Shown here in pieces: positions 9,171 to 63,933 of a DNA stretch of 64,000 bases (its first letter is position 1; each line of letters opens with the position of its first letter). The notes under the pieces were generated by a model that was given only the letters and a program-made list of their open reading frames with translations, searched no databases and was not told where the DNA came from. Source of the stretch: Cruoricaptor ignavus (GTDB lineage: Bacteria > Bacteroidota > Bacteroidia > Flavobacteriales > Weeksellaceae); the NCBI RefSeq assembly GCF_900141665.1, contig NZ_FQYI01000001.1, forward strand, positions 124,001 to 188,000, in the 5' to 3' direction. Made by a program: the position numbers and the translations under genes.

Positions 9171-10376
9171 ATGCCAAAAATATCCCGACGCGCGCAGGAA
9201 ATGCCCGCCTCCCCAGTAAGAAAATTAGTGCCCTATGCCCTGCTCGCCAAGCAGCGCGGAACTAAAGTTTATCACCTGAACATCGGCCAGCCGGATATCG
9301 ACACGATTCCCGCGGCGATTGAAGCTATAAAAAATATCGATATGAAAGTGCTGGATTACGCACTTTCCGAAGGCAATATAGAATACCGCACCGCTCTGAT
9401 GAACTATTACCACAGGCTGGGCTTTGCCGACCTTACGACTGATAATTTCATTGTGACCAACGGCGGCTCGGAAGCGCTGAATTTCGCCATTTCGCTGGTT
9501 TGCGATCCTGAGGATGAGATCATCATCCCCGAGCCTTACTATGCCAACTACAACGGCTTCGCACAGGCCTTCAATGCAAGGGTAATTTCCGTTCCAAGCA
9601 GCATTGAAACTGGTTTCTCCCTGCCGCCGATTTCTGATTTTGAGAAGAAAATTACCTCCAACACACGCGCCATCCTAATCTGCAACCCGGGCAACCCTAC
9701 CGGCTATCTCTACTCCCGCGAAGAGCTGGAGCAGCTCGCGCGCATCGCTATAAAGCACAACATCGTCATCATCTCGGATGAGGTATATCGTGAGTATGTC
9801 TATGACGGTAAGGAGCAGGTTTCCATGCTGTCTTTCCCAGAATTGAAAGATCACTGCATCGTAATAGATTCAGAATCAAAGAGATACTCAATGTGCGGGG
9901 TGAGGATCGGCACCTTTGTGACAAGATCCAAGGAACTGCACGATGCGGCTATGAGATTCGCACAGGCGAGGCTTTCCCCGGTTCTCATCGGCCAGATCGC
10001 GGCAGCTGCGGCACACAGCGATGATTTTGAATACATTAATAATGTGCGGCAGGAATACACGAAGCGCCGAAACCTACTGGTAGATTTGCTGAATGCGATC
10101 CCAGGAGTGATCTGCCCGAAACCGCAGGGCGCATTCTACTGCGGCGTAGAGCTGCCGGTGGATGACTCCGACAAATTCTGCCAATGGATGCTGGAGCATT
10201 ACTCCAACAACGGCGAAACGGTGATGATGGCACCTATGGGCGGCTTCTACAGCAACCCTGAGCTAGGGAAAAAGCAGGTGCGCATGGCGTATGTCCTTAA
10301 TGAGCAGGATCTGAAACGCTCGGCAGAAATTTTGGAGGATGCCCTTCTGAAATACAGGGAGGAGTTTAATATTTAA
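9171..10376 (+). CDS. Pyridoxal-phosphate-dependent class I/II aminotransferase
   Basis: This 401-residue fold-type I enzyme is close to aspartate/tyrosine-type aminotransferases. It shows the NIGQPD substrate loop, GGSEAL at about 98-103, NPGNPTG around 172-178, Asp203 and Tyr206 for PLP, and the Schiff-base lysine Lys237 in SESKRYSMCGVRIG with Arg at the end for substrate carboxylate binding. It should be cytoplasmic and catalyse amino-acid/2-oxo-acid transamination; the exact amino acid is not deducible. The small vapX-like ORF starts 11 bases after its stop, so the downstream toxin-antitoxin genes and murB may be read from this transcript. Confidence 0.9.
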   Translation: MPKISRRAQEMPASPVRKLVPYALLAKQRGTKVYHLNIGQPDIDTIPAAIEAIKNIDMKVLDYALSEGNIEYRTALMNYYHRLGFADLTTDNFIVTNGGSEALNFAISLVCDPEDEIIIPEPYYANYNGFAQAFNARVISVPSSIETGFSLPPISDFEKKITSNTRAILICNPGNPTGYLYSREELEQLARIAIKHNIVIISDEVYREYVYDGKEQVSMLSFPELKDHCIVIDSESKRYSMCGVRIGTFVTRSKELHDAAMRFAQARLSPVLIGQIAAAAAHSDDFEYINNVRQEYTKRRNLLVDLLNAIPGVICPKPQGAFYCGVELPVDDSDKFCQWMLEHYSNNGETVMMAPMGGFYSNPELGKKQVRMAYVLNEQDLKRSAEILEDALLKYREEFNI

Positions 10377-10563: not shown

Positions 10564-10866
10564 ATGTTCGCAATTAGTTTTGATATGGTTGTTGCAGAAT
10601 TGAAAAAATACTACAATGATCCATACAATAATGCCTATTATGAAATTAGTTCCATCCTGGATAAATACGGATTTTTCGGTGTTCAGGGAAGTTTGTACTT
10701 GAGCAACAACAACGATATGTCCAATCTTGTTGATGCAATTGATGCGTTAAATGAGAAGGAATGGTTTGTAAATTCGGTAAGGGATATCAGAGCTTTTCGG
10801 GTGGAGGATTGGAGTAATTTTACTGCGAGAGCAAAACGAAAAGCCACAAACACTGACAGAGAATGA
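10564..10866 (+). CDS. vapD: VapD family endoribonuclease toxin (Cas2-like fold)
   Basis: VapD proteins are small ferredoxin-fold RNases related to Cas2; the H. pylori enzyme cuts RNA, and in H. influenzae VapD is the toxin of the VapXD pair. This 100-residue copy has the family signature: FAISFDMVV with Asp7, GVQGSLY with Ser43, and SVRDIRAFRVEDWS with Asp74, in positions like the active residues described for H. pylori VapD. It starts two bases after the small ORF. Its stop overlaps the murB start in ATGA, so murB translation may depend on vapD translation. No loss of key residues is seen, so it is probably functional. Confidence 0.9.
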   Translation: MFAISFDMVVAELKKYYNDPYNNAYYEISSILDKYGFFGVQGSLYLSNNNDMSNLVDAIDALNEKEWFVNSVRDIRAFRVEDWSNFTARAKRKATNTDRE

Positions 10867-11891
10867 TTCAGGAAAATTTTTCATTGAAGGCGCACAATAC
10901 CTTTGGTGTGGATGTTTCGGCGAAGTACTTTGCGGAAGCGTCTTCCGAAGGCGAACTGCTGGAGGTTTTGCAGGAATTTAAACAGAGAAATGCCGGCGGA
11001 AGCCTGCCGATGATGATTCTTGGCGGCGGAAGCAACATCCTTTTCACCAAGGATTTTGAAGGCCTGGTGCTGAAGCTCCACCTATTGGGAATTTCGGAAG
11101 AAATGATAAATGATGAGGAAGTTTTGGTGACGGCAAAATCAAGCGAGAATTGGCACAATTTCGTGATGCACTGCGTTGGGAAGAATATCGGCGGGCTGGA
11201 AAATCTTGCGCTGATTCCTGGGAATGTGGGCACTTCGCCGATGCAGAACATCGGAGCTTACGGCGTGGAAATCAAGGATGTCTTCCATTCCTGCAAAGCC
11301 CTGAACCTGGAAACTTTGGAGATTGAGAAGTTTGACAAAGCGCGTTGCCAATTCGGTTACCGCGATTCTTTTTTCAAAAACGAGGGCAAGGGCAAATACA
11401 TCATCCTGGAAGTTACTTTTAAACTCAAAACCAAAAACCACGAAATTCACGCCGGTTATGCAGCGCTGCACAGCGAACTTGAAAGGCGGAAAATTGAGCA
11501 CCCCACCATTCAGGATATCGCAGAAATCGTGATTACGATTCGTGAAAGCAAATTGCCAGACCCTTCCGAAATCGGCAATGCTGGTAGTTTTTTCAAAAAC
11601 CCAATAATTTCGCAGGAAAATTTCGAAATCCTCAAACATCAGCATCCGGAAATTCCGGCCTATGGAGATGGAGAAAATATAAAAGTTCCTGCAGCGTTTT
11701 TAATTGAAAAGGCAGGCTGGAAAGGCAGGCAAATCGGCAATGTGGCCACGCACGAAAAGCAGGCACTGGTAATTGTTAACAAAACCGGGGCAGCAACTGG
11801 AAAAGAAATTTTTGAATTTTCTCGCCAAATTATTGAAGATGTTGAAAAGCAGTTTGGCGTCAGATTAGAAAGGGAGGTGAATATTTATTAA
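10863..11891 (+). CDS. murB: UDP-N-acetylmuramate dehydrogenase
   Basis: MurB is the FAD enzyme that reduces UDP-GlcNAc-enolpyruvate with NADPH to UDP-MurNAc, the step after MurA. Landmarks over the 342 residues are NTFGVDV near the start, the FAD loop GGGSNILF, IPGNVGTSPMQNIGAYGVE, YRDSFFK, and the proton-donor serine in NAGSFFKNP. The ATGA overlap with vapD supports the start at 10863 and makes murB the last gene of the aminotransferase-vapX-like-vapD-murB row. The length and full domain set match type I MurB proteins with the additional C-terminal lobe. Confidence 0.95.
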   Translation: MIQENFSLKAHNTFGVDVSAKYFAEASSEGELLEVLQEFKQRNAGGSLPMMILGGGSNILFTKDFEGLVLKLHLLGISEEMINDEEVLVTAKSSENWHNFVMHCVGKNIGGLENLALIPGNVGTSPMQNIGAYGVEIKDVFHSCKALNLETLEIEKFDKARCQFGYRDSFFKNEGKGKYIILEVTFKLKTKNHEIHAGYAALHSELERRKIEHPTIQDIAEIVITIRESKLPDPSEIGNAGSFFKNPIISQENFEILKHQHPEIPAYGDGENIKVPAAFLIEKAGWKGRQIGNVATHEKQALVIVNKTGAATGKEIFEFSRQIIEDVEKQFGVRLEREVNIY

Positions 11892-11982
11892 ATTTAAAAT
11901 AGTTTAAGCTGGTCATTACATCAGATAAATCTAAATTTACAACGCCTAATTTCAGGCATAGCATTAAACACAAAACTTATTT

Positions 11983-13701
11983 ATGGCTAAGACTACCATC
12001 GGAAAATATCTGGCTTCCAGGCTGGAAGAGATCGGACTGAAATATTATTTTACAGTTCCAGGAGATTATAATTTAACCTTGCTGGACGAGCTTATCAGCA
12101 ATAAAAATATGCAATATGTGGGCAACTGCAACGAACTGAATTCCGCCTACGCCGCCGAAGGCTATGCCCGTGCCAATGGCGCCGGCGCAATGATTACCAC
12201 CTTTAATGTTGGGGCATTTTCAGCATTGAATGGTATCGTGAGTGCCTATGCAGAGCGGCTGCCGGTGATTTTTGTCTGCTCCGCGCCCAACAGCAACGAC
12301 ATTTTTTCAAACCGATTTGTTCATCACAGCATCGCCACTCACGATTTCAGCTATCAATTTGAGATGATAAAGCGGGTGACTTGTGTGGCGGAGAGAATTT
12401 TGCACGCGGAAAACGCGCCGAGACAAATTGACAATGCCATCCGCACCGCAATCCGGGAAAGGAAGCCAGCATATATTGAAATCCCTGCTAATCTCTCCAC
12501 GGCTGAATGTTCAGTACCGCAACCGCTGCTCTTGGATGCCCCTGTTGGCGGCAATACAGCGATGGCAGTGAATGAGGAAGCGCTTAATGCTGCAGTAAAA
12601 TCAATAGCGGAACAACTCAACAAAGCCGAAAAACCGGTTTTGCTTGCAGGCCCTCATCTACGATCTTTCGGAGCTGTGGACGCATTTCGCCATTTAGCCG
12701 AAGCGCTAGGTTGCGCTGTAGCTGTGCTACCAAATGCCAAAAGCTTTTTCCCTGAAGATCACCCCCAATTCATCGGGGTATATCTAGGCAAAGTCAGCAG
12801 CCCAGGTTGTGATGCGATTATGGAATGGTCGGATATGATTTTAGCAGCTGGCGCAGTCTTCACCGATTATTCAACTGTTGGGTGGACTATGGCACTGCCA
12901 GAGAGGGAGAAAATGATCGATGTGCGCGCTTGGGATGTGCAGCTGCCGGAAGATGATTTTACCAATGTCCCGATAGCAAAAGTATTGGAAGGCTTGGCTA
13001 ATTATGTGAACAGTAACAAAACTTCGCTCGAGCAGTTCAATCGAGAAAGCCAGCAAGGTAAAATGGTTGATTATGATTCACAGGCTGCAGATGAACGGCT
13101 TAGCCGAGCTGAAATGGTAAATCAAATTGAGCACAACCTCATCGATGCCAATACCACGCTGATTGTGGAAACAGGCGATTCCTGGTTTAATGGAATGTAC
13201 ATGAAATTGCCAAACGGTGCCGGTTTCGAAATGGAGATGCAATATGGCTCCATCGGCTGGTCTTTGCCAGCGAGCCTCGGTTACGCGCTGGGCGCCGAGC
13301 CCGGCCGCCGCACCGTGCTTCTCATCGGCGATGGCTCCTTCCAGCTGACCGCTCAGGAAATCTCCAAGATGATTGAATTGAAACAGGAAATCATTATGGT
13401 GCTAGTGAACAACTATGGCTATGTCATTGAATCGGCAATTCACGAAGGGCCTTATAATTATTACCAAAACTGGGATTATGCCGCATTAATGAAGGCATTT
13501 AACGGCAACGATGGTAATGGCCTTGGCCTCACCGCAGCCACTGCTGGAGAGCTAGCCGATGCCATCGCCCAGGCGAAATCTCATAAAGGCGGCCCGGTGC
13601 TCATCGAATGCCAGATAGAGCACGATGATTACACGAAGGAACTCATCACCTGGGGAAGCGCTGCCGCTGAAGCCAATGCACGCGAGCCGAAGGAGATTTA
13701 G
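11983..13701 (+). CDS. pdc: Thiamine-diphosphate-dependent pyruvate decarboxylase
   Basis: It is predicted to decarboxylate pyruvate, non-oxidatively, to acetaldehyde. The 572 residues follow Zymomonas Pdc closely from end to end. Catalytic residues are present: Asp28 in PGDYN, Glu51 in CNELN, the His114-His115 pair in VHHS, the ThDP-binding GDGSFQLTAQE from 449 to Asn476-Asn477, and Glu483 in YVIES. The ETGDSWFN and KLPNGA motifs are also Pdc-like, and GDGSFQLTAQ differs from the usual indolepyruvate decarboxylase motif. No alcohol dehydrogenase is adjacent in this window. Bacterial Pdc is uncommon, so acquisition by transfer is plausible. Other 2-oxo acids as substrate cannot be excluded. 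Confidence 0.85.
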   Translation: MAKTTIGKYLASRLEEIGLKYYFTVPGDYNLTLLDELISNKNMQYVGNCNELNSAYAAEGYARANGAGAMITTFNVGAFSALNGIVSAYAERLPVIFVCSAPNSNDIFSNRFVHHSIATHDFSYQFEMIKRVTCVAERILHAENAPRQIDNAIRTAIRERKPAYIEIPANLSTAECSVPQPLLLDAPVGGNTAMAVNEEALNAAVKSIAEQLNKAEKPVLLAGPHLRSFGAVDAFRHLAEALGCAVAVLPNAKSFFPEDHPQFIGVYLGKVSSPGCDAIMEWSDMILAAGAVFTDYSTVGWTMALPEREKMIDVRAWDVQLPEDDFTNVPIAKVLEGLANYVNSNKTSLEQFNRESQQGKMVDYDSQAADERLSRAEMVNQIEHNLIDANTTLIVETGDSWFNGMYMKLPNGAGFEMEMQYGSIGWSLPASLGYALGAEPGRRTVLLIGDGSFQLTAQEISKMIELKQEIIMVLVNNYGYVIESAIHEGPYNYYQNWDYAALMKAFNGNDGNGLGLTAATAGELADAIAQAKSHKGGPVLIECQIEHDDYTKELITWGSAAAEANAREPKEI

Positions 13702-13746
13702 AAACAAAGATCTTCTGGCAAAGACCTAATTTGACATTTTTTAATC

Positions 13747-13754
13747 TATTTTTG
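13747..13754 (+). promoter_or_regulatory. -7 box (TATTTTTG) for yceI
   Basis: An exact TAnnTTTG core, 27 bases before the chosen ATG at 13782. A TTTGACA lies upstream at 13730, but at 13 bases it is too close for the usual -33 spacing. Confidence 0.45.
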
Positions 13755-13781
13755 TTACCTTTAACCCAAAATTTTATCATT

Positions 13782-14351
13782 ATGAAAAAAATCCTCTCGA
13801 TCCTCACAGTGCTGATGTTCAGCCTGAACGCGTTCGCTCAGAAACATTACGAAAGCGACGCGGCACACTCCAGAATCGGCTTCAGCATCATCCACATGGG
13901 CATCAATGACATTTCAGGCAACTTCGATAAGTCGAATGTTATGATCGATGGCGACATTAACGCCCTGCAAAATGCGAAAATCAATTTCAACGCAGAAACA
14001 GCGAGCATTAACACACAAGTGGAAAAACGCGATGAACACCTTAGAAATGCTGATTTCTTCGATGCTGCCACTTACCCGAAAATTGCCTTCAGCTCTACCT
14101 CGATAAAACCGACAAAGAAAAATTACTACGAGATGAAGGGCAACCTGCTGATGCACGGGGTTACAAAGCCTGTGACGCTGGTGCTGGTATACCGCGGTAG
14201 CAGCAAAAATATGAGCGGTAAAACAGTGCACGGCCTGCAGGTGCTGGGCACGCTGAAGCGCTCCGATTTTGGAATTGGCGGAAAATTCCCAGAAGCGATG
14301 CTTAGCGACAATGTGCGCATCAAAGGGGATTTTGAAATCATCGAGAAGTAA
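13782..14351 (+). CDS. YceI family periplasmic protein
   Basis: The 189-residue protein begins with a signal peptide (MKKILSILTVLMFSLNAFAQ) and is then a single YceI lipocalin-like domain. It has DAAHSRIGFSI, the GNFDK strand, HLRNADFFDAATYPKIAF and the closing KGDFEI. YceI proteins bind polyisoprenoid or other amphiphilic lipids in the periplasm. The longer in-frame extension to 13731 lacks a signal-like start and lies over the promoter core, so the MKK start was chosen. A second YceI gene, a lipoprotein, lies at 55632-56303. A strong terminator follows. Confidence 0.9.
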   Translation: MKKILSILTVLMFSLNAFAQKHYESDAAHSRIGFSIIHMGINDISGNFDKSNVMIDGDINALQNAKINFNAETASINTQVEKRDEHLRNADFFDAATYPKIAFSSTSIKPTKKNYYEMKGNLLMHGVTKPVTLVLVYRGSSKNMSGKTVHGLQVLGTLKRSDFGIGGKFPEAMLSDNVRIKGDFEIIEK

Positions 14352-14374: not shown

Positions 14375-14400
14375 GCGGACTTAATAGTCCGCTTTTTTTT
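14375..14400 (+). terminator. Intrinsic terminator after yceI
   Basis: The seven-base stem GCGGACT/AGTCCGC has loop TAAT and is followed by eight T. It ends yceI and separates it from lnt. Confidence 0.9.
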
Positions 14401-14414
14401 GCAAAACAAATCCT

Positions 14415-14422
14415 TAATTTTG
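14415..14422 (+). promoter_or_regulatory. -7 box (TAATTTTG) for lnt
   Basis: An exact TAnnTTTG core just after the yceI terminator and 18 bases before the GTG at 14441. Its position argues against an lnt start at the TTG at 14399, which would lie upstream of the promoter. Confidence 0.5.
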
Positions 14423-14440
14423 GTGTTAAATTCCCCATCG

Positions 14441-16078
14441 GTGAAACATATCATAATCTCGCTGATTTCCGCGGCATTGCTGTCGATTTCGTGGCCAACC
14501 TACGGCATTCCGTTTTTTATTTTCGTGGCGCTCGTTCCGCTGATGATGGCAGAGCACGACATTGCGAAATTTTCAAAAATAAAGCGGAAAGGCTGGCGAA
14601 TCTTCATTTTGGCATACCTTACATTTTTCATCTGGAATCTTGTGACAACAGGCTGGCTATACGGCTCAAGAAATCCGGACGGAAGCCATTCCATACCGGC
14701 TGTTGCGCTGCCCGTAATTCTCAATTCGCTGTTTTACGCGCTGGTTTTCCTATGCTACCACTGGTATAAAAAAACCCAGGGCACTTATTGGGGACTGGCT
14801 TTCCTCGTGGCAATCTGGATGGCTTTCGAAAAGCTGCATCTCTCTTGGGAACTCACCTGGCCTTGGCTAAATTTGGGCAATGTGTTTTCGGAATATCCGA
14901 AGTTCATCCAATGGTACGATACGGTGGGGGCAACCGGCGGAAGTTTTTGGATTTTGCTCGTAAATGTGTGGGTTTTCTACACTTTGCGGATTTGGCAGGC
15001 GGGCAGAAAGCGAAAGGCGTTAATCAAAAATTTATCGATTTTAGCACTCGGAATTCTGCTGCCAACAATCGTTTCCATTTACAAATACAACAATTTTAAC
15101 GAGAAACCGATAGGCGAAGTTTCTGTGCTGATGCTTCAGCCGGAACTCGATCCTTATGAGGAAAAATACCAGAAGGACAGCCTTCAGATTTTGCACGAAT
15201 TGCTGGATTTGGCGAAGGTTGACGGCAATGTAAAAGTGGATTATTTCCTGGCACCGGAAACCGCAGTTCCTGGCAGAGGTTCGATTTCTGAGACAGGATT
15301 TTCGCAAAGTTTACTTTTGCAAGAAATTCAAAAATTCCTGGAAAACAATCCGAATTCCGTATTTGCAAGCGGGATGTCCACACATCGTTTTTTCAAAGTT
15401 GGCGAAGTGTTGCCTTCTCAGGCTTACGAACTGGATTCTGGCAATTTCGTGGTAAGCTATAATTCAGCAGTTCAGTTGGCGAACGGAGAAAGTCCGGTGG
15501 TTTATCACAAAGCGAAATTGGTTCCCGGCGTGGAAATTTTCCCGTATATGAACATCCTTAAACCATTGATTGGCAATGCGATGCTGGATTTCGGCGGCAC
15601 TGTGGCTTCGCTGGGAATTGATGAGGAAAGGGCGGTTTTCGCCAACCCTTACAACCAGGGAAAAATGGCGCCGGTCATCTGCTACGAAAGCATTTACGGC
15701 GAATTTGTGACGGAATATATTCAAAAGGGCGCGAATTTCATCGGGATAATGACGAACGATAGCTGGTGGGGCGTTTCGGAAGGGCACCGGCAGCTGCTGT
15801 CTTACGCCAGACTTCGGGCGATAGAAACGCGACGCGAAATTGCGAGGTCGGCAAATTCCGGAATTTCGGCGCACATCAATGCTTTGGGCGAAATCGAGGC
15901 CGATACGCTTTATGGGGACAGAACGGCGCTTTTCGCAAAGGTGAAACTTTACGGCGGCACCACGCCCTACACAAGAGGCGGCGACCTTATTTCAAGGATT
16001 TGTATTTTCGCTTTCGGCTTTCTGATTTTTTACACTTTAATTAAAAAATGGCAGGCCAAGCGGCAGCGGAAAATTTAA
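14441..16078 (+). CDS. lnt: Apolipoprotein N-acyltransferase
   Basis: Lnt adds the third acyl chain to the N-terminal cysteine of lipoproteins in the inner membrane. The 545-residue form chosen here starts at GTG (VKHIIISLIS...), directly before the first membrane helix, and a promoter core lies just upstream. About six helices fill residues 1-215, then comes the nitrilase-like domain with its Glu (LAPETAVPGRG), Lys (YHKAKLVPG) and Cys (PVICYESIYG) triad, NDSWWG, and one last helix. The toxin-antitoxin genes follow 18 bases after its stop. Many lipoproteins in this window would be substrates. Confidence 0.92.
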   Translation: MKHIIISLISAALLSISWPTYGIPFFIFVALVPLMMAEHDIAKFSKIKRKGWRIFILAYLTFFIWNLVTTGWLYGSRNPDGSHSIPAVALPVILNSLFYALVFLCYHWYKKTQGTYWGLAFLVAIWMAFEKLHLSWELTWPWLNLGNVFSEYPKFIQWYDTVGATGGSFWILLVNVWVFYTLRIWQAGRKRKALIKNLSILALGILLPTIVSIYKYNNFNEKPIGEVSVLMLQPELDPYEEKYQKDSLQILHELLDLAKVDGNVKVDYFLAPETAVPGRGSISETGFSQSLLLQEIQKFLENNPNSVFASGMSTHRFFKVGEVLPSQAYELDSGNFVVSYNSAVQLANGESPVVYHKAKLVPGVEIFPYMNILKPLIGNAMLDFGGTVASLGIDEERAVFANPYNQGKMAPVICYESIYGEFVTEYIQKGANFIGIMTNDSWWGVSEGHRQLLSYARLRAIETRREIARSANSGISAHINALGEIEADTLYGDRTALFAKVKLYGGTTPYTRGGDLISRICIFAFGFLIFYTLIKKWQAKRQRKI

Positions 16079-55631: not shown

Positions 55632-56303
55632 TTATTTTTTTGCTAAAATATTAAGATCCAGCTCCACATCCTGCGATATAGCCCAGTCGGCAGGGTTGCC
55701 CTCCGTTTTATAATTCAGTCCCCAGTCTTTCCTGTTGATAATGAATTTTGAAGCCAGCCTCAACTCATTTTCTGCCACATCAACTTTTGCCGGGAAGGTT
55801 ACATTCACCGTCTGACCTTTAATGCTCAGATTTCCGCTCACCAGCTTATTGGCACCCTCAAGTCTGGCTTCGGTTCCAGCAGCCAGATCCTCAACTTTTG
55901 TGATAGTAAAAACAACATTCGGGTGGCTTGCAACATCGAAGAAATCTTCGCTTTTCAGGTGCTCGTCCAGGTCGGTAGATTTCTTTCCTTCATTTGGGTT
56001 TACTGCAGCAGGATCTGTAAGCAGCGTGTTCATATCTGCGGTATACTCACCGGAAACGAGGTTGCCGTTATCGGCCGAAAGCGTGCCAGTGCCGGATACC
56101 GTGCCGTAGCGGGGATTGAGGCCGCCCTTGTGCGTCGCGTGCCACTTGATGGTGGAGGCGGACTGATCAATGGTGTAGGCATCGCCGGAGTGCGCCGCCG
56201 CGCTCTGCTCGGTACCGGTAGAAACGCTGTCTGCAGTTTTGTTGTCCTTGCATGCCGTAGCTGCCAATGCCGCAGCAAACATCATTACTGTAATTTTTTT
56301 CAT
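55632..56303 (-). CDS. YceI family lipoprotein
   Basis: The 223-residue protein has a lipoprotein signal (lipobox ATAC), a Thr/Ser/Ala-rich spacer, and a YceI lipocalin-like domain from about residue 45: QSASTIKWHATHKGG, HLKSEDFFDVASHPNVVF and the closing strands. YceI proteins bind isoprenoid-like lipids. It is a paralogue of the soluble YceI at 13782-14351, differing in being membrane-anchored. Its own promoter core sits in the 38-base gap to the efflux pump gene, so it seems separately expressed. Confidence 0.9.
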   Translation of the reverse strand: MKKITVMMFAAALAATACKDNKTADSVSTGTEQSAAAHSGDAYTIDQSASTIKWHATHKGGLNPRYGTVSGTGTLSADNGNLVSGEYTADMNTLLTDPAAVNPNEGKKSTDLDEHLKSEDFFDVASHPNVVFTITKVEDLAAGTEARLEGANKLVSGNLSIKGQTVNVTFPAKVDVAENELRLASKFIINRKDWGLNYKTEGNPADWAISQDVELDLNILAKK

Positions 56304-56326
56304 TAGAATAAATTTAGATTATCCGC

Positions 56327-56334
56327 AAATATAC
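56327..56334 (-). promoter_or_regulatory. -7 box (TATATTTG) for the YceI lipoprotein
   Basis: An exact TAnnTTTG core on the minus strand, 23 bases before the ATG, inside the gap after czcA. Confidence 0.6.
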
Positions 56335-56341
56335 ATTTTTT

Positions 56342-59300
56342 TTATATTGATCTGCGGCCAGGCCTTACGCCTCTACCTTCGTGGTTGAATATCCGAAAAA
56401 TCACAGGGAAGATCAGCAGGGTAAGCACCGTGGCCGTCTGCAGCCCGCCGATGATCACGATGGCAAGCGGCTTTTGCGACTCCGAGCCTATGCCCGTGGA
56501 AAGCGCAGCGGGTACCAGCCCTATGGTCGCCATCAGCGCCGTCATCACCACCGGCCGTGTGCGGTCGCGGATGCCTTTGGCAATGGCGGTATCCACATTC
56601 ATTCCTAATTTTATATTTTTATGAAATTCCGTGAGGAGAATCACGCCGTTCTGGATGCATATCCCAAACAGGGCAATGAACCCCACACCGGCAGAAATGC
56701 CGAAATTCATCCGGGTAAGGTGCAGCGCGATGATGCCTCCTATGAGCGAGAAGGGGACATTCGCCAATACCAGCAGCGCGTCCTTCATATTACCGAAAAG
56801 TATGAACAGGAGGAAAAATATCCCGAGCAAACTTATAGGAACCACCTGCCCCAGCCGCTTTGTGGCACGCTGCTGATTTTCAAACTGCCCCGTCCATCCA
56901 ACCCGGTACCCCTCCGGGATTTTGATTTCCGAGACCTTTTTCTGCGCCTCTGCGATGGTGCTGCCCAGGTCGCGGTCGCGGATGGAGAACTTGATACCGA
57001 TGTACCTTTTAATATCATCCCGATAGATAAAGGCAGCGCCATTCTGCCGGCGGATGTTGCAGATTTCCCTCAGGGGGATGAGGCCTCCCTCCTGCGTGGG
57101 CACCATCAGCTGGGCAATATCGTTTTCATCCTTCCGGTAATCCTTTTCGTAGCGGATGCGGATATCGAAGCGCCGCTCGCCCTCGTAAAGCGTGGATGCC
57201 GTGACGCCTCCGAAAGCCGCCTCCAGCACAGCCTGTGCATCGTCCAGCGACACGCCGTACTGCGCCATCTTCTGCCGGTTGAGAATTACCGACACCTCCG
57301 GCTGCCCGATGTTTTTAATAATGCCCGCATCCTCTATCCCTTTGATATCCTTTATTTTATCTAAAACCTCTTTGGCAATACGGTCCAGAGTGCGAAGATT
57401 ATCGCCATAAATCTTGATGCCGTTTTCTGCCTTAAAACCTGCCACCGCCTCTGCCACATTATCCGAGATCGGCTGTGAGTAGTTGTAGGTCACTCCCTGA
57501 TACTGCCGCAGCTTGCCGTCCATCTCCCCTATCAGTTCGTCGTAGGATATTTTGCGTTCCCATTTCTCTTTCGGTTTCAGGTTTACGGCAAATTGTATAA
57601 ATCCGAAGCCGTTGGGGTCGGTGCCGTCGTTGCTGCGCCCGGTTTGGGTAAGCACCCCGGTGACTTCCGGCAGGCTCAGGATTTCTTTTTTAAGTTTCTC
57701 GGTTGTTTTCAGGGATTCGTTGAGGCTCGTGCTCATTGGGAGCTCTGCAGTCACCCACAGGGCGCCCTCGTTCAGTGTCGGTAAAAATTCCGTCCCGAGA
57801 AATTTAGCCGAGAACAGCGTGATGACAAGGAATGCCAGCGCCGCGGCGAGGCTGCTTTTCTTGTGTTTAAAGGTATAAACGAATGCCTTTTCCACAATCC
57901 TGTCCCAGAATTGTACGAATTTATTATGCTTCTCGCGCACATTTTTGTTGAGCAAAATATGGCACAGCACCGGCACCAGCGTAAGCGTGAAGAGCAGCGC
58001 GCCCAGCAGTGCGAAGCCCAGCGTATACGCCAGCGGGGAGAACATCTTGCCCTCCACCTTCTGGAAGGAGAATATCGGCAGCAGCGAGGTGATGATGATG
58101 AGCTTTGAGAAAAAAATCGCCTTGCCAAGCCCCGCGCCGGTATTTTTTATCCAGCCGCCTTTCGCCATCCTGTTGAAGCGCTCCATCCCGTATTTTGATG
58201 CTTTATGATCCAGCATTACAAAGATTCCTTCCACCATTACCACAGCCCCGTCTATAATGATTCCGAAATCTATCGCGCCTAGGGAGAGGAGGTTGGCGCT
58301 CATACCAGCCAAATTAAGGCAGAAAAAGGCAAACAGCAGCGACAGCGGTATCACGAGGGCGACTATGAGCGTGGTACGCCAGTCCGCCATGAAGAGGAAG
58401 ACCACCACCGTCACCAGCACGATGCCTTCCAGGAGGTTGTGCTCCACGGTGCTCGTGGTGAAATCCATAAGGTCCTGCCTGTCGTAAAATGTTCTGAGTT
58501 TTACATCCGGCGGGAGGATCTTCGTGTTCAGCTCCTCTATTTTTTCTTTTACCGCCTTCAGTACTTCTTCAGGGTTTTCGCCTTTGCGCATCACCACGAT
58601 GCCTGCTACCACATCGTTTTTATCGTTAAGCCCTGCCTGTCCCACTCTGGGTAGGGAGCCTTCCTCCACCTTTGCTATGTTTTTTACGAGGATAGGGTTC
58701 CCGCGGTCGTTCCTTACGATTACATTTTCGATATCCTGAATGCTGCCCAGCAGCCCGATGCCGCGCACCACATAAGACTGGCCGCTTTTCTCAATCACAT
58801 CCCCGCCCACATTCAGGTTGCTGCGCGACACGGCCTCGTGGATCGCCGCCGAGGTAAGCCCGAAGGTTTCCAGCTTTCTCGGGTCTATGCTGATGAGGTA
58901 AATTTTTTCCTGACCGCCGAAGACATTGACATCTGCCACACCCGGTACGCCCCGCAGCGCCCTATCCACCACCCAGTTCTGAAGCGTCAGCAACTCCCGC
59001 GAATCGCGCTTTGGGCTCTCCAGCGTGTAGCGAAAAATCTCGCCCGTGGGCCCGTAGGGGGGCTGCACCTCCGGCTCGGCGCCGTCTGGGAGCTCCACGG
59101 TGCGGATGAGGTTATTCACCTGGTTTCTTGCAAAAGCATCCTCTACGCCATCATCAAACATTATTTTAATGATGGACAGGCCGAACATCGTGGTGCTGCG
59201 GATGTTTGTTTTCTTCTGCAGCGGGCTCATCGCCAATTCCACCGGGGTGGTCACGAAGCGCTCCACCTCCTCGGCGCTGCGGCCGTTCCACTGGGTGATG

Positions 59301-59455
59301 ATGGTTATTTGGGTATTGGTAACATCCGGAAACGCATCTATCGGCATCTGCCGGAAGCTGATGATGCCTGCTACCGTCAGTATTGTGACCCAAAAAAATG
59401 TAAAGCCCTTGTTCTTCAGCGAAAAGGCGATGATATTTTTTATTAATTTGTTCAT
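56342..59455 (-). CDS. czcA: Heavy-metal efflux RND pump, CzcA type
   Basis: The 1037-residue inner-membrane pump exports metal ions, driven by protons, with an adaptor and outer-membrane channel. It has twelve helices and two large periplasmic loops, as usual for RND proteins. The charged helix-4 signature is DFGIIIDGAVVMVEG at 396-410 (Asp396, Asp402), the form found in divalent-cation pumps (zinc, cobalt, cadmium, nickel) rather than the monovalent Cu/Ag pumps. The likely substrate is therefore a divalent ion, although annotation as CusA is common. It is the last gene of the five-gene operon. Confidence 0.9.
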   Translation of the reverse strand: MNKLIKNIIAFSLKNKGFTFFWVTILTVAGIISFRQMPIDAFPDVTNTQITIITQWNGRSAEEVERFVTTPVELAMSPLQKKTNIRSTTMFGLSIIKIMFDDGVEDAFARNQVNNLIRTVELPDGAEPEVQPPYGPTGEIFRYTLESPKRDSRELLTLQNWVVDRALRGVPGVADVNVFGGQEKIYLISIDPRKLETFGLTSAAIHEAVSRSNLNVGGDVIEKSGQSYVVRGIGLLGSIQDIENVIVRNDRGNPILVKNIAKVEEGSLPRVGQAGLNDKNDVVAGIVVMRKGENPEEVLKAVKEKIEELNTKILPPDVKLRTFYDRQDLMDFTTSTVEHNLLEGIVLVTVVVFLFMADWRTTLIVALVIPLSLLFAFFCLNLAGMSANLLSLGAIDFGIIIDGAVVMVEGIFVMLDHKASKYGMERFNRMAKGGWIKNTGAGLGKAIFFSKLIIITSLLPIFSFQKVEGKMFSPLAYTLGFALLGALLFTLTLVPVLCHILLNKNVREKHNKFVQFWDRIVEKAFVYTFKHKKSSLAAALAFLVITLFSAKFLGTEFLPTLNEGALWVTAELPMSTSLNESLKTTEKLKKEILSLPEVTGVLTQTGRSNDGTDPNGFGFIQFAVNLKPKEKWERKISYDELIGEMDGKLRQYQGVTYNYSQPISDNVAEAVAGFKAENGIKIYGDNLRTLDRIAKEVLDKIKDIKGIEDAGIIKNIGQPEVSVILNRQKMAQYGVSLDDAQAVLEAAFGGVTASTLYEGERRFDIRIRYEKDYRKDENDIAQLMVPTQEGGLIPLREICNIRRQNGAAFIYRDDIKRYIGIKFSIRDRDLGSTIAEAQKKVSEIKIPEGYRVGWTGQFENQQRATKRLGQVVPISLLGIFFLLFILFGNMKDALLVLANVPFSLIGGIIALHLTRMNFGISAGVGFIALFGICIQNGVILLTEFHKNIKLGMNVDTAIAKGIRDRTRPVVMTALMATIGLVPAALSTGIGSESQKPLAIVIIGGLQTATVLTLLIFPVIFRIFNHEGRGVRPGRRSI

Positions 59456-59467
59456 CTTTTTATCAAG

Positions 59468-60574
59468 TTAATATGAAAGTGCTTGGTAGATCATCAGCTG
59501 ATTGCCCGTAGCCACCCTTTCTCCCCTGGCTAGCCCCTCCGAGATGTAGGCGGTATCTTCCGTCTGGCTAAGGACCTGTACCTCCCTTACCTCCACATCC
59601 TTCTCGGAGCGGTACACCACCACGAAGTTTTTATTGTCATCAAAAATCAATGCTGCCGCAGGTATGGCGATAGCGGAGCTTGCGGTGGCGTTTCTCACGG
59701 TGATGGTCGCTTTACTCTCCGGTATCAGTTCGCCGGTGGTGTTTTCCAGATTTACCCTCGCCTGCATGGCATTGGTTTCCGGGTTGATGACTTTTATAAT
59801 CCGGTCTATCGTCCCGGGGTAGCTTTTCCCGGGGTTGGCAATGGTGGATACCTGCACCCTCATCCCTGTCGATATTTTGCTGATGTCGCTCTCATTCACA
59901 TTCACCAGCGCCCAGAGATTTTTCGTATTGGCGATATCGAAAATATTATCGCTGCGGTCGCTGCGGAGCTGCATATCTTTGTTGATGTTTTTATAAACCA
60001 CATATCCAGAGATTGGCGCGGTGACGGTGTAGATATTCCCGTTTTTAATGTTGTAAATCTGGCTGATTTGGCTGGCGCGGCGCAATTCATCCTGGGCGCG
60101 CTGCACACGGCTCTTCGCCTCGGCTACATCGCTGGAAGTATTCAGGCGGCTGTCGTACAGTTCCTTTTGCACCCTCAACTGATTTTGCGCCACAGCAAGT
60201 TCATTCTTGGCATCGCTTACATCCCGCTGGACATCAGAGAGCTCCGTAGAGCGGATGGTGGCGAGCGCCTGTCCTTTATGCACATAATCGCCGAGGCTTA
60301 CATAAACATTCAGCACATTGCCGCCCACCAGCGGATATACATCGATGTACTGATTCTGGTCTGTGGTAATTTTCCCAAAAAACCTGAGCTCTTCCTCCAC
60401 CGGGGCAGCCTGCGCGGTAGCGAGCGTCAGCCCGCTGAGCATGGTTTCGGTAAGGCTGAATTTCTGAGCTTCCGCCGGCTGGGGAGCTTGGTTTTGCGGC
60501 TCTTTTTGGCAGGAGCCCAGCACAAGGGAGGCAGTTGCCGTGAGGATTATTGATTGGATGAAACGGTTTTTCAT
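59468..60574 (-). CDS. czcB: RND efflux adaptor (membrane fusion) protein, CzcB type
   Basis: The 368-residue lipoprotein (lipobox LGSC) joins the RND pump to the TolC-like channel. It has the biotinyl-lipoyl half-motifs (GGNVLNVYVSLGDYVHKGQALATI and the PISGYV region), a helical hairpin about 105-175, and beta-barrel and membrane-proximal domains (GMRVQVSTIANPGKSYPGTI, EVREVQVL). It lies twelve bases before czcA and eleven after the channel gene. No N-terminal His-rich metal-binding domain is visible. Confidence 0.92.
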   Translation of the reverse strand: MKNRFIQSIILTATASLVLGSCQKEPQNQAPQPAEAQKFSLTETMLSGLTLATAQAAPVEEELRFFGKITTDQNQYIDVYPLVGGNVLNVYVSLGDYVHKGQALATIRSTELSDVQRDVSDAKNELAVAQNQLRVQKELYDSRLNTSSDVAEAKSRVQRAQDELRRASQISQIYNIKNGNIYTVTAPISGYVVYKNINKDMQLRSDRSDNIFDIANTKNLWALVNVNESDISKISTGMRVQVSTIANPGKSYPGTIDRIIKVINPETNAMQARVNLENTTGELIPESKATITVRNATASSAIAIPAAALIFDDNKNFVVVYRSEKDVEVREVQVLSQTEDTAYISEGLARGERVATGNQLMIYQALSY

Positions 60575-60585
60575 TTGAAAAGATT

Positions 60586-61827
60586 TTAATTAAAAGGAAC
60601 CTGAATCAGGCGGCTGATTTCTTCTGCATCGGTCAGCACCTGCAGCTGCATATCGCTCAGCTGCATCATCGTTTCATTGAAACTTTCGAGGAAATCGGTA
60701 AAGTCTATCAGGCTCACATTCCCCCGTCGGAAATTCTCCGTCATACCCCGAAATACCTTCTCGAGATCCTGCGTATCCCGCTCAGATACGGAATTTAGAA
60801 GTGCGCGGCTGCTCTGCCATTGCCGGTATGCTTTCGCTACTTCGGCTTGCAGCTCCTGCTTGCGGTATTCGGCGGTAGCTCGTTTCTGCTGCAGTGCCGC
60901 ATCTGCACCAGCAATGTTTCCGTTGTTCTTCTTCCACAGCGGGAGGGGTATGGCGATGCCGGCATTCACTTCATTTTTAAAGACGCCCCCGTCCTGGTTG
61001 TATTGCAGGTATCCGCTAATATCCACAGTGTTCAGGGACTTCTGCCACTCCAGATAGCGGCTGCCGGATTCGATGTCCTTCAGGGCATAGAGGTATTCCG
61101 CATTGTTTTTTTCAGCTTTTATTTTCAAATCTTCCAGGCTGAGGAGCGGCTCGTGCTGTAGTGCGTAGCGGATTTCCTCAGCGGGGAATTCCGGCAGCAG
61201 TTCCTCGGGCAGGCCCGTAAGTATGCGCAAATTCTTTTCTGCCTCGGTGATGGTGCTTATGATTTCCGCGCGCTGGGCTTTTAAATTAATAACTATGGCA
61301 TTCAGCCTTACCGCATCTTTCAGGGATACATTCCGGCGCTCCGCCTGCTGCCTGTACGCCTTTACCAGATCCGCGAGGTAGCCCAGCTGCAGGTCGATGT
61401 TTTCAATCTTCTTTTGGCTGAAGTATACCTCGTATGCCGACTGCCGGAGCCTGGCGAGCAGCTCTACCGCCAGCTGCCTGTACTGCAGCTGCGCCAGTTC
61501 TTTATTGGCGCGCCAGTATTCTACCTCTTTTCTGCGCTTTCCGCCGAGCAGAAACAACTGCGAAATTTGCAGGCTTTTGTAATTTCCTACATTGAAGAAG
61601 GAGGGCTTTTCAGGATTAAGGGCATTAACTTCTAGCTGCGCCTCGGGCAGGTCCCAGATTTTTGCCTGGATGACCTCTGCATCCGCCTGAGAGATATTGT
61701 ATTGCTCGGCGAGGAGCTGCAGATTATTCCTGCGGAATGCGGCTTCCATCTCGGGCAGCGTCAGCCGGGTTTGAGCGCCGGCAGCCGCTGAGACTGATAA
61801 AACTATTGCAGCAAAAACTTTTCTCAT
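60586..61827 (-). CDS. czcC: TolC-family outer-membrane efflux channel, CzcC type
   Basis: The 413-residue protein has a signal peptide (start MRKVFAAIVL, cleavage after AAGAQ) and the OEP repeat of long helices that form a periplasmic tunnel: LQLLAEQYNISQADAEV, YRQQAERRNVSLKDAVRLNA and QKRATAEYRKQELQAEVAKAYRQ. It ends in a short tail. The longer frame to 61848 only adds seven residues before the signal. It follows the sensor kinase by 70 bases and precedes czcB. Confidence 0.9.
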   Translation of the reverse strand: MRKVFAAIVLSVSAAAGAQTRLTLPEMEAAFRRNNLQLLAEQYNISQADAEVIQAKIWDLPEAQLEVNALNPEKPSFFNVGNYKSLQISQLFLLGGKRRKEVEYWRANKELAQLQYRQLAVELLARLRQSAYEVYFSQKKIENIDLQLGYLADLVKAYRQQAERRNVSLKDAVRLNAIVINLKAQRAEIISTITEAEKNLRILTGLPEELLPEFPAEEIRYALQHEPLLSLEDLKIKAEKNNAEYLYALKDIESGSRYLEWQKSLNTVDISGYLQYNQDGGVFKNEVNAGIAIPLPLWKKNNGNIAGADAALQQKRATAEYRKQELQAEVAKAYRQWQSSRALLNSVSERDTQDLEKVFRGMTENFRRGNVSLIDFTDFLESFNETMMQLSDMQLQVLTDAEEISRLIQVPFN

Positions 61828-61897
61828 AAAAGAAAATTGGAGCCGCAAAAATCAATTTACCCGATTAATTAACGCTTTAAAAAATCTTAAATTTCAA

Positions 61898-63256
61898 TTA
61901 AACTTTTGGTTCGCCAGGAAAGGCGATACAGAATACATTCCTGCCGCCCTGCTGCCGGTAGGAAATTTCAGCCTTGTGGTAATCCAAAATCCTCCGGGAA
62001 ATTCTCAGGCCAAGACCGGAGCCGGGTTTCCTGCCGGAATTCCCGCCACGGCTGAATGCCTGAAATATTCTCTCCCCGTCTCCAGGGGGAATAAGCTCGC
62101 CACTGTTGCTGATTTCTATGGTGATATTTTCCGATTGCGTGACGCTCACTTCCGCCTTTTTATCCTCAGAATAGAGGGCAGCATTCTTCAGCAGGTTATT
62201 AAACACTATCATCAGGAGGGACTTTGCGCCCATTACCGAAAAATCGGCGTCATCATTTTGGGAAGAGAGGGAAAAATCCATCTCGAACTCGGGGAAGTTT
62301 TTTTTAATTATTTCAAAAGAATCAAAAATCACCTCATCAATCCTGATCGGGCTGAGCTCAAGGTTCTGGCTTTCCTCGGTCTTTGCCAGCAGCAGCAGGG
62401 ACTCGAGTGTGTCGGAGAGCTGAAAAACATCCTCGCGTACCGACTGCACATAGCTGCCCACCTGCGCCTCTAATGGCAGCTCGGAGAGATTTTCCAGCCG
62501 GTAGGCTATCCTTGCCAGCGGCGTCTTCAGCTCGTGCGAGGCGCTGGAGGTAAATTCCTTCTGCGAAGAGTAGGCGCTGTCTATCCTTGCCAGCATCCTG
62601 TTAAAAACTTCCGCGAGGGTATTCAGCTCATCCCCGCTGCCAGAAACGGGCAGTTTCTCATCCAGATTCTGGGCAGAGATTTGGGTAATTTTTTTCTGAA
62701 AGATATCAAGCGGCAAAAGCATCCTATTCGTCACGAAATAGCTTAGCATCCATACGGAGGCAAGGCTGATGAGGTAGGAGAAAAGCAGGATGATCCTGAG
62801 ATAGCGGAGCTTTTCCCTGCCCCAGCTGTCATCCGCCTTGGTGAGGATGGTAAGCGGCTGCCCGGCTACCACCTCCCTGCGCGCAAAAATCTCCCACTGC
62901 CCCTCGCGGAAGAACTGCCTGTTTTTCCTGCGCACCTCTTCTAGTATCCGCCCATCCATCGCGGGCGCTGGGGCGTGCCGGTTGGCAAAAATAAGTTCGC
63001 CACTATCGTTATACACAAAGATTTCCTCGTTGAAGAGAGGGTCTTCCGTATCGATGGAAAGGATCTTCATCCCCGAATCCTCGATGGGAAGGGCCGAGAG
63101 GGCACGCATCGTGATTTCCGTACTCTGCTGCAGTCGAAGGTGGAATTCCTCCGTTCGGTAGTTGGAGAAAAGGAGATAAATTGCCAGCATCACCACGCTG
63201 AGCAGCACCGAAAAGGCGATGCTGAGCGCCAGGGATATCCGCTGCTTCAGATTCAT
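61898..63256 (-). CDS. Sensor histidine kinase of the metal-efflux operon
   Basis: The 452-residue inner-membrane kinase has helices at about 10-30 and 152-175, a periplasmic sensor domain between, and a HAMP segment from about 178. The HisKA phospho-acceptor is SASHELKTPLARI (His241), and the ATPase domain has NNLLKNAALY and GSGLGLRI. The periplasmic domain has few cysteines or histidines, so I cannot name the metal sensed. It overlaps the response regulator gene by four bases and is placed before czcCBA, which it should control. Confidence 0.92.
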   Translation of the reverse strand: MNLKQRISLALSIAFSVLLSVVMLAIYLLFSNYRTEEFHLRLQQSTEITMRALSALPIEDSGMKILSIDTEDPLFNEEIFVYNDSGELIFANRHAPAPAMDGRILEEVRRKNRQFFREGQWEIFARREVVAGQPLTILTKADDSWGREKLRYLRIILLFSYLISLASVWMLSYFVTNRMLLPLDIFQKKITQISAQNLDEKLPVSGSGDELNTLAEVFNRMLARIDSAYSSQKEFTSSASHELKTPLARIAYRLENLSELPLEAQVGSYVQSVREDVFQLSDTLESLLLLAKTEESQNLELSPIRIDEVIFDSFEIIKKNFPEFEMDFSLSSQNDDADFSVMGAKSLLMIVFNNLLKNAALYSEDKKAEVSVTQSENITIEISNSGELIPPGDGERIFQAFSRGGNSGRKPGSGLGLRISRRILDYHKAEISYRQQGGRNVFCIAFPGEPKV

Positions 63257-63933
63257 TGCTTCCCCTGTATGTAGTAGCCGAAGCCGGGGCGGGTGTGTAT
63301 CAGCTTAGGCTCAAACTCTTTGTCGATTTTCTTCCGGAGGAAGTTGATGTACACCTCTATGGTATTGGTATTCGTATTAAAATTAATATCCCAAACCGCC
63401 TCGGAAATCTGCTGCTTGGAAAATATCTGCCCGGGGCTCTCCGCCAGCAGCACCAGCAGCTGGTACTCCTTTACAGTCAGGGGGATCTCCTGCCCGTCGC
63501 GCCACACCTTCTTCTGCACCTTATCTATGCTGAGATTCTCCACCCGGATGATTTCTGCCGCATCCTCTGCCCTCTGCTGCCTCCTGCCCAGCGCCTCTAT
63601 CCTCATTATCAGCTCCTCAAACGCGAAAGGCTTTACCAGATAATCATCCGCCTGCCTGCCGAAGGCCTCCTTCTTATCCGAAATATCCCCGAAGGCAGAG
63701 ATCATCAGGATCGGCGTATCAGCATCCGTTTCCCGGATTTTCGCACAGACCTCCAGCCCATTTACTTTCGGCACATTGATGTCCAGCAGATATAGGCCGA
63801 AGCTATCCCTGCGTATTTCCTTCAGAAATGCCTCGCCATCGTACACCTGCACTACCCCGTAGCCTCGGTTCTCAAGAAATTTACTTAATTCAGAGGAGAG
63901 CGTAGCATCATCCTCCAGCAAAAGGATTTTCAT
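63253..63933 (-). CDS. OmpR-type response regulator of the metal-efflux operon
   Basis: The 226-residue regulator has a receiver domain with Asp8, Asp9, phospho-acceptor Asp51 in LLDINVPKVNG and Lys101, then a winged-helix DNA-binding domain (about 130-226) with LTVKEYQLLVLLAESPGQIFS and RKKIDKEFEPKLIHTRPGFGYYI. This is the CusR/CzcR type. It is the first gene of the operon regulator-kinase-czcC-czcB-czcA, so it may regulate its own expression. The nearby minus-strand TAATTTCG (63947-63954) differs from the -7 consensus by one base. Confidence 0.94.
   Translation of the reverse strand: MKILLLEDDATLSSELSKFLENRGYGVVQVYDGEAFLKEIRRDSFGLYLLDINVPKVNGLEVCAKIRETDADTPILMISAFGDISDKKEAFGRQADDYLVKPFAFEELIMRIEALGRRQQRAEDAAEIIRVENLSIDKVQKKVWRDGQEIPLTVKEYQLLVLLAESPGQIFSKQQISEAVWDINFNTNTNTIEVYINFLRKKIDKEFEPKLIHTRPGFGYYIQGKQ

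Follow-up and report, generated by a model that had tools for sequence, protein, structure and literature searches.

A deep-branching predicted pyruvate decarboxylase, very probably acquired by horizontal transfer, in the flavobacterium Cruoricaptor ignavus

Pyruvate decarboxylases (PDCs) are rare in bacteria according to a 2018 report (PMC5947705), which counts six bacterial enzymes described by that year, from acetic acid bacteria, Zymomonas, Zymobacter and Sarcina, assembles 25 PDC sequences with Ktedonobacter among their sources, and presents ANC27, a reconstructed ancestral bacterial PDC, as fully functional. Titles and abstract openings, which give a partial coverage of the literature, contained no description of a PDC for Weeksellaceae, Flavobacteriia, Bacteroidota or Moraxella. 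Here we describe a pdc gene in a stretch of 64,000 nucleotides of the Cruoricaptor ignavus contig NZ_FQYI01000001.1, subsequently called the window. An earlier sequence-only reading had proposed a Zymomonas-like PDC gene in this stretch; the open reading frame lies exactly where that reading had placed it and runs undamaged from an ATG start to a TAG stop. It is discussed together with the following neighbours:

9171–10376, plus strand: aminotransferase gene, native, upstream of murB (Pfam, synteny)
10863–11891, plus strand: murB, native core gene immediately upstream of pdc (Pfam; kept in relatives)
11983–13701, plus strand: pdc, predicted pyruvate decarboxylase of 572 aa (open reading frame, Pfam, PDB matches, tree clade, residues)
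13782–14351, plus strand: yceI-like gene, downstream of pdc (Pfam YceI)
14399–16078, plus strand: lnt, apolipoprotein N-acyltransferase, native, beyond pdc and yceI (Pfam; downstream of murB in relatives)

The window PDC resembles the described enzymes of Zymomonas mobilis, Zymobacter palmae and Acetobacter pasteurianus in clade, architecture and catalytic and pocket residues. It differs from them in sequence (47.5–48.6% identity), in having Y and S in place of the Zymomonas residues W412 and H414, and in its setting, as no zinc- or iron-type alcohol dehydrogenase was found in the host. The TPP_enzyme N, M and C domains all exceed their Pfam cut-offs, and this three-domain TPP decarboxylase architecture spans the full length of the protein. 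Bacterial PDC structures in the PDB match it end to end. The top match (E = 7.7e-193, 645 bits) is ANC27 (5npu), which is a laboratory reconstruction and not a natural gene; it is followed by nine chains named pyruvate decarboxylase with 538–555 bits. Scores then fall clearly, to ∼300 bits for alpha-keto acid and branched-chain decarboxylases, ∼264–272 bits for chains that we take to be yeast-type PDCs and ∼250 bits for indolepyruvate decarboxylases.

A different substrate would be expected if the protein were an indolepyruvate, phenylpyruvate or branched-chain 2-oxo acid decarboxylase with a role in the breakdown of amino acids or in a synthesis of auxin-like type. Among NCBIfam models, those closest to the protein are indeed of this kind, and a PDC model is absent among the 25 of 53 families listed for the protein. 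However, the scores are far below the respective cut-offs, with 342.2 bits against 946 for indolepyruvate decarboxylase (TIGR03393) and 200.9 bits against 554.5 for indolepyruvate/phenylpyruvate decarboxylase (TIGR03394), and the protein falls outside those clades in the tree that the earlier reading had called for. IpdC (TIGR03393) shares the TPP decarboxylase superfamily and the domain order with the window PDC, whereas two IpdC-like proteins (L156 and L157) are only 29–31% identical to it, carry other pocket residues and form a well-separated clade.

Residues were compared in an alignment of 14 PDC-clade proteins and nine other decarboxylases, with Zymomonas numbering taken from 5tma. The window PDC retains D27, E50, H113, H114, Y290, T388, D390, S391, W392, I415, D440, N467, G469, I472, E473 and I476. 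The set that we take to be catalytic (D27, E50, H113, H114, E473 and I415) is thus identical throughout, and the residues that presumably shape a small, pyruvate-sized pocket (Y290, T388, W392, I472 and I476) are the same as in all 13 other PDC rows. T388, I472 and I476 are also present in some of the nine non-PDC enzymes; Y290 or W392 occurs in none of them, and L156 and L157 have T, Q and A where the PDCs, including the window protein, have Y290, T388 and W392. On the basis of model scores, trees and residues together we reject an indolepyruvate or phenylpyruvate identity, and we regard the whole group of alternative 2-oxo acid substrates as very improbable. The window gene very probably encodes a true bacterial PDC (EC 4.1.1.1), as the earlier reading had claimed, with the activity predicted from clade and conserved catalytic residues; such a TPP- and Mg-dependent enzyme would split pyruvate into acetaldehyde and CO2. 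At 26 positions the twelve other PDCs agree while the window protein and its relative from Moraxella atlantae both differ; among these positions, Y and S replace W412 and H414 in the two proteins, next to the conserved I415. In the window protein the three residues are Y421, S423 and I424.

The first tree, calculated from 50 proteins with a mixture model, recovered a 14-row PDC clade including the window PDC at 100/100. Within this clade the window and Moraxella atlantae PDCs are sisters (100/100) and the remaining 12 PDCs group at 100/98. A pyruvate oxidase-like protein (row L127) forms a very long branch in this tree and sets the drawn root. For a second tree (LG+G4, 39 rows) L127, L069, L158, L041, L161, L043, L042, L067, L065, L064 and ANC27 were left out; the 13 PDC rows were again united at 100/100, the 11 without window and Moraxella grouped at 98/99 and the sister relationship reappeared. 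The window PDC branches outside the PDCs of Zymomonas, Zymobacter and the acetic acid bacteria, and also outside those of a Granulicella plasmid and of G417, another member of the Bacteroidota. In these topologies the window and Moraxella proteins most likely split off first among the PDCs sampled. This position is likely rather than certain because constraining window, Moraxella and G417 together, a grouping picked after the first tree, costs 23 log units and is not rejected (p-AU 0.081). Alignment identities to the window PDC are 89.0% for Moraxella atlantae, 53.0% for ANC27, 52.9% for G417, which belongs to the same clade, 51.1% for the Granulicella plasmid and 48.8% for a Gluconobacter plasmid. 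With 48.6% for the Zymomonas chain (47.7% for the Zymobacter chain) and a branch outside Zymomonas, the label ‘Zymomonas-like’ was an overstatement.

The gene is sporadically distributed. In the host family only one of 320 genomes has a match at E ≤ 1e-60, and this is the genome of the window itself; among 59 relatives 26 matched at E ≤ 0.001, with 21–33% identity among the matches listed apart from the genome's own PDC. A sample of the host phylum gave matches at E ≤ 1e-40 in seven of 395 genomes, and identities above 37% only in the own genome and G417. In the phylum of Moraxella atlantae, 20 of 398 sampled genomes matched at E ≤ 1e-60. Five of these are PDC-like, namely M. atlantae (89%) and G1090, G1022, G766 and G1044 (45–46%); in the remaining 15 genomes the top match reaches 30–36% identity. 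Its family yielded 137 of 299 genomes at the same threshold, with M. atlantae alone above 36% identity. A scan of named genomes by exact peptide patterns, which reaches close relatives only, had M. atlantae NBRC 14588 as its sole find. Relatives were also present in 133 records of a plasmid collection (E ≤ 1e-30) and in 39 phage records, all below 60% protein identity; the plasmid records include a conjugative Granulicella plasmid (51.3%) and Gluconobacter plasmids (47.6–47.8%). No relative was found in a viral collection; at the DNA level three plasmids only were matched, covering 4–10% of the window pdc. A Granulicella pdc of ∼51% identity sits on a conjugative plasmid (L154:3995–5677), so PDC genes can travel.

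The relatives of the host provide a view of the insertion site. A murB gene was detected in 39 of the 40 genomes that make up the relatives set, counting that of the window, and 30 murB loci were compared (29 relatives and the window's own). Of the 29 loci from relatives, 20 have the aminotransferase gene in the 1.5 kb flanking murB. Downstream of murB, pdc is absent in all 20 relatives for which the flank was taken, two of these flanks being shortened by a contig end. In three of the 20 (G021, G019 and G006) lnt is within reach: it follows murB at a distance of ∼30 bp in G021, behind a single open reading frame, proC (over cut-off), in G019, and behind three in G006. The downstream stretch taken from the remaining 17 showed no lnt and no yceI, and in the window the murB–lnt interval holds pdc and the yceI-like gene. 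As the contents vary in this way, the region appears to take different cargo in different genomes. No direct repeats of at least 14 were detected at the insertion borders (11700–14000). A sigma-70 scan returned 6 promoter-like sites against 3.1 expected, and a terminator scan 1 against 3.1. The start of the yceI-like gene was set at an ATG by judgement, the mechanical reading frame starting with TTG at 13731. Ahead of this gene, TATTTTTG at 13747 matches TAnnTTTG, which we take to be a Bacteroidota promoter motif, and yceI is perhaps a transcription unit of its own; with 39 occurrences of this motif on the plus strand of the window, the match is weak evidence for a promoter. Elsewhere in the window, the G+C content rises to ∼0.50–0.53 at 56000–63700 compared with 0.457 for the whole window.

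The earlier reading had suggested looking for flanking signs of transfer; both the distribution (one of 320 family genomes) and the murB–lnt site speak for a transfer. The closest counterpart is the PDC of M. atlantae NBRC 14588 (contig NZ_BCUL01000008.1), which is 89% identical over 572 residues across phyla. A blastn comparison of the two loci gave a match confined to the gene (11992–13683) with 76% DNA identity, in contrast to the flanks, where no match was found. Based on distribution and synteny, we consider it very probable that the window pdc was acquired by horizontal transfer. The nearest relative in another phylum could also arise if Moraxella or other DNA contaminated the assembly. 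However, pdc lies inside a 471-kb contig between the family-typical murB and lnt, the similarity to Moraxella ends with the gene at 76% DNA identity and the contamination value of the genome is 0.41; contamination is ruled out by the contig context and its probability is negligible. The host genome comprises 2.23 Mb in 29 contigs (completeness 99.98). The FtsY encoded in the window is 69–77% identical to its four best matches in the plasmid collection, all from Bacteroidota (the next six listed are at 48–50%), so the host itself belongs to the Bacteroidota.

The transfer was not recent. Between the window and Moraxella pdc genes dN is 0.069 and pS is 0.858, and 169 of 227 four-fold sites differ, approximately the value expected at saturation. 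Saturated synonymous sites combined with strong protein conservation indicate long and strong selection on the gene, and they rule out a recent direct transfer from Moraxella. M. atlantae carries this same uncommon PDC lineage, and the transfer may have run in either direction or involved a third donor. In a codon contrast of host against Moraxella the window pdc scores +0.065 log units per codon, closer to its own host, and lies below all 44 other long open reading frames of the window (0.109–0.240). The Moraxella pdc scores −0.086, which fits Moraxella and is near the weak end of the reference of 36 Moraxella open reading frames, picked by length and not checked as genes. One could argue that the gene is a passing neutral insertion without function: it is solitary, occurs in one genome of the family, has no recognized linked pathway genes and ranks lowest among the long window reading frames in the codon contrast. 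Against this, the frame is intact, the low dN next to saturated synonymous sites reflects long purifying selection and the codon usage is closer to that of the host than to that of Moraxella. A functionless insertion has only a slim chance of being correct.

Seven other PDC neighbourhoods were inspected for partners of the enzyme, and an alcohol dehydrogenase lies beside pdc in three of them (M. atlantae, G417 and G1044). At the M. atlantae locus, unlike that of the window, an iron-type alcohol dehydrogenase, presumably YqhD-like, converges on pdc (544.1 bits, cut-off 645); recA is ∼3 kb from pdc. At ∼3–5 kb from the same gene (L004:2628–4734) two transposase reading frames adjoin a gamma-glutamyltranspeptidase frame without its N-terminal part. 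In G417, also unlike the window, a zinc-type dehydrogenase (ADH_N over cut-off) directly precedes pdc on the same strand, separated from it by 18 bp (L128:8471–11284), an arrangement that is likely a PDC–ADH operon in a member of the Bacteroidota. In G1044 an AdhP gene is located downstream of pdc (551.4 bits, cut-off 344). No alcohol dehydrogenase was seen beside pdc in the other four, that is in G766 and G1090 (reading frame lists inspected by eye) and on the Granulicella and Gluconobacter plasmids (annotation); a pdc gene lacking such a neighbour is therefore nothing exceptional. The absence of a linked alcohol dehydrogenase in the window, noted in the earlier reading, was confirmed insofar as none was recognized among the nine neighbouring reading frames scanned.

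The whole host genome was searched for alcohol dehydrogenases of the zinc and iron types. No match to ADH_N (PF08240) and none over cut-off to the iron alcohol dehydrogenase family (PF00465) was obtained, although each family has matches in 13 of 14 control genomes; a zinc- or iron-type partner for a PDC–ADH ethanol pathway was thus not found. The sole weak iron-type match (19.5 bits, cut-off 31.3) belongs to a 3-dehydroquinate synthase (aroB model, 328.9 bits, cut-off 305). These results weigh against a genuine PDC whose acetaldehyde goes to ethanol by way of an alcohol dehydrogenase from a class beyond the two searched, such as the short-chain, aldo-keto or quinone-linked type. Given the alcohol dehydrogenases beside pdc in M. 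atlantae, G1044 and G417, we regard this route as a possibility, albeit an unlikely one. Of the two dehydrogenase activities that the earlier reading had proposed to look for, the alcohol dehydrogenase is thus missing from both families searched, and the aldehyde dehydrogenase family is represented by two proteins. One is an L-glutamate gamma-semialdehyde dehydrogenase of the proline pathway (773.5 bits, cut-off 613.6). For the other, models of succinate-semialdehyde dehydrogenase give the highest scores, but none of the 25 families listed is reached at its cut-off:

contig C24, 203535–204812, minus strand: candidate aldehyde dehydrogenase gene, the single candidate for the acetaldehyde step

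This gene converges on pyruvate kinase and is ∼66 kb away from pdc (L123:14015–16815).

Three proteins with a TPP_enzyme_N domain are encoded in the host genome: the PDC, MenD (350.3 bits, cut-off 244.2) and a protein resembling pyruvate oxidase or quinone-dependent pyruvate dehydrogenase (PoxB-like; 647.1 bits, under the cut-off of 893). The PoxB-like gene (L127:1146–2867, host contig C15) could also make acetate from pyruvate, without PDC. None of the three exceeds the cut-off for acetolactate synthase among the families listed, and the host may therefore lack the capacity for branched-chain amino acid synthesis. Among four E1_dh matches, pyruvate dehydrogenase E1 alpha (430.3 bits, cut-off 393.85) ranks first, followed by 2-oxoglutarate dehydrogenase E1 (1179.8 bits, cut-off 764). 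The presence of these two components agrees with the respiratory setting assumed in the sequence-only reading, which is shown in part by them.

The explanation that best covers these observations, and that we consider probable as a whole, is a true PDC that was acquired horizontally and would supply acetaldehyde for conversion to acetate in the host. PDC would convert pyruvate to acetaldehyde, which an aldehyde dehydrogenase, with the protein encoded on contig C24 as the candidate, would oxidize to acetate. As pyruvate dehydrogenase E1 alpha is present and the searches for alcohol dehydrogenases of zinc and iron type gave none over cut-off, oxidation to acetate is the most likely fate of acetaldehyde; its use by the candidate enzyme is a guess, since this protein fits succinate-semialdehyde models best and stays below the cut-offs of the families listed. 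Taken alone, this putative acetate step is held with rather less than even confidence; it would give a CoA-independent overflow or bypass route rather than an ethanol fermentation.

With the window PDC, a known enzyme family gains a deep-branching member from a host in which it was not expected. A more speculative picture, which we consider doubtful, is that respiring Gram-negative bacteria from different phyla exchange a deep PDC lineage of its own kind, and that in the window host this enzyme would work free of any alcohol dehydrogenase, bypassing pyruvate dehydrogenase from acetaldehyde to acetate instead of opening an ethanol fermentation. A natural deep-branching PDC in Bacteroidota and Moraxella widens the sequence range of an enzyme used in biotechnology, and a host with pyruvate dehydrogenase E1 alpha, in which no zinc- or iron-type alcohol dehydrogenase was found, offers a setting to test the role of PDC outside ethanol fermentation.
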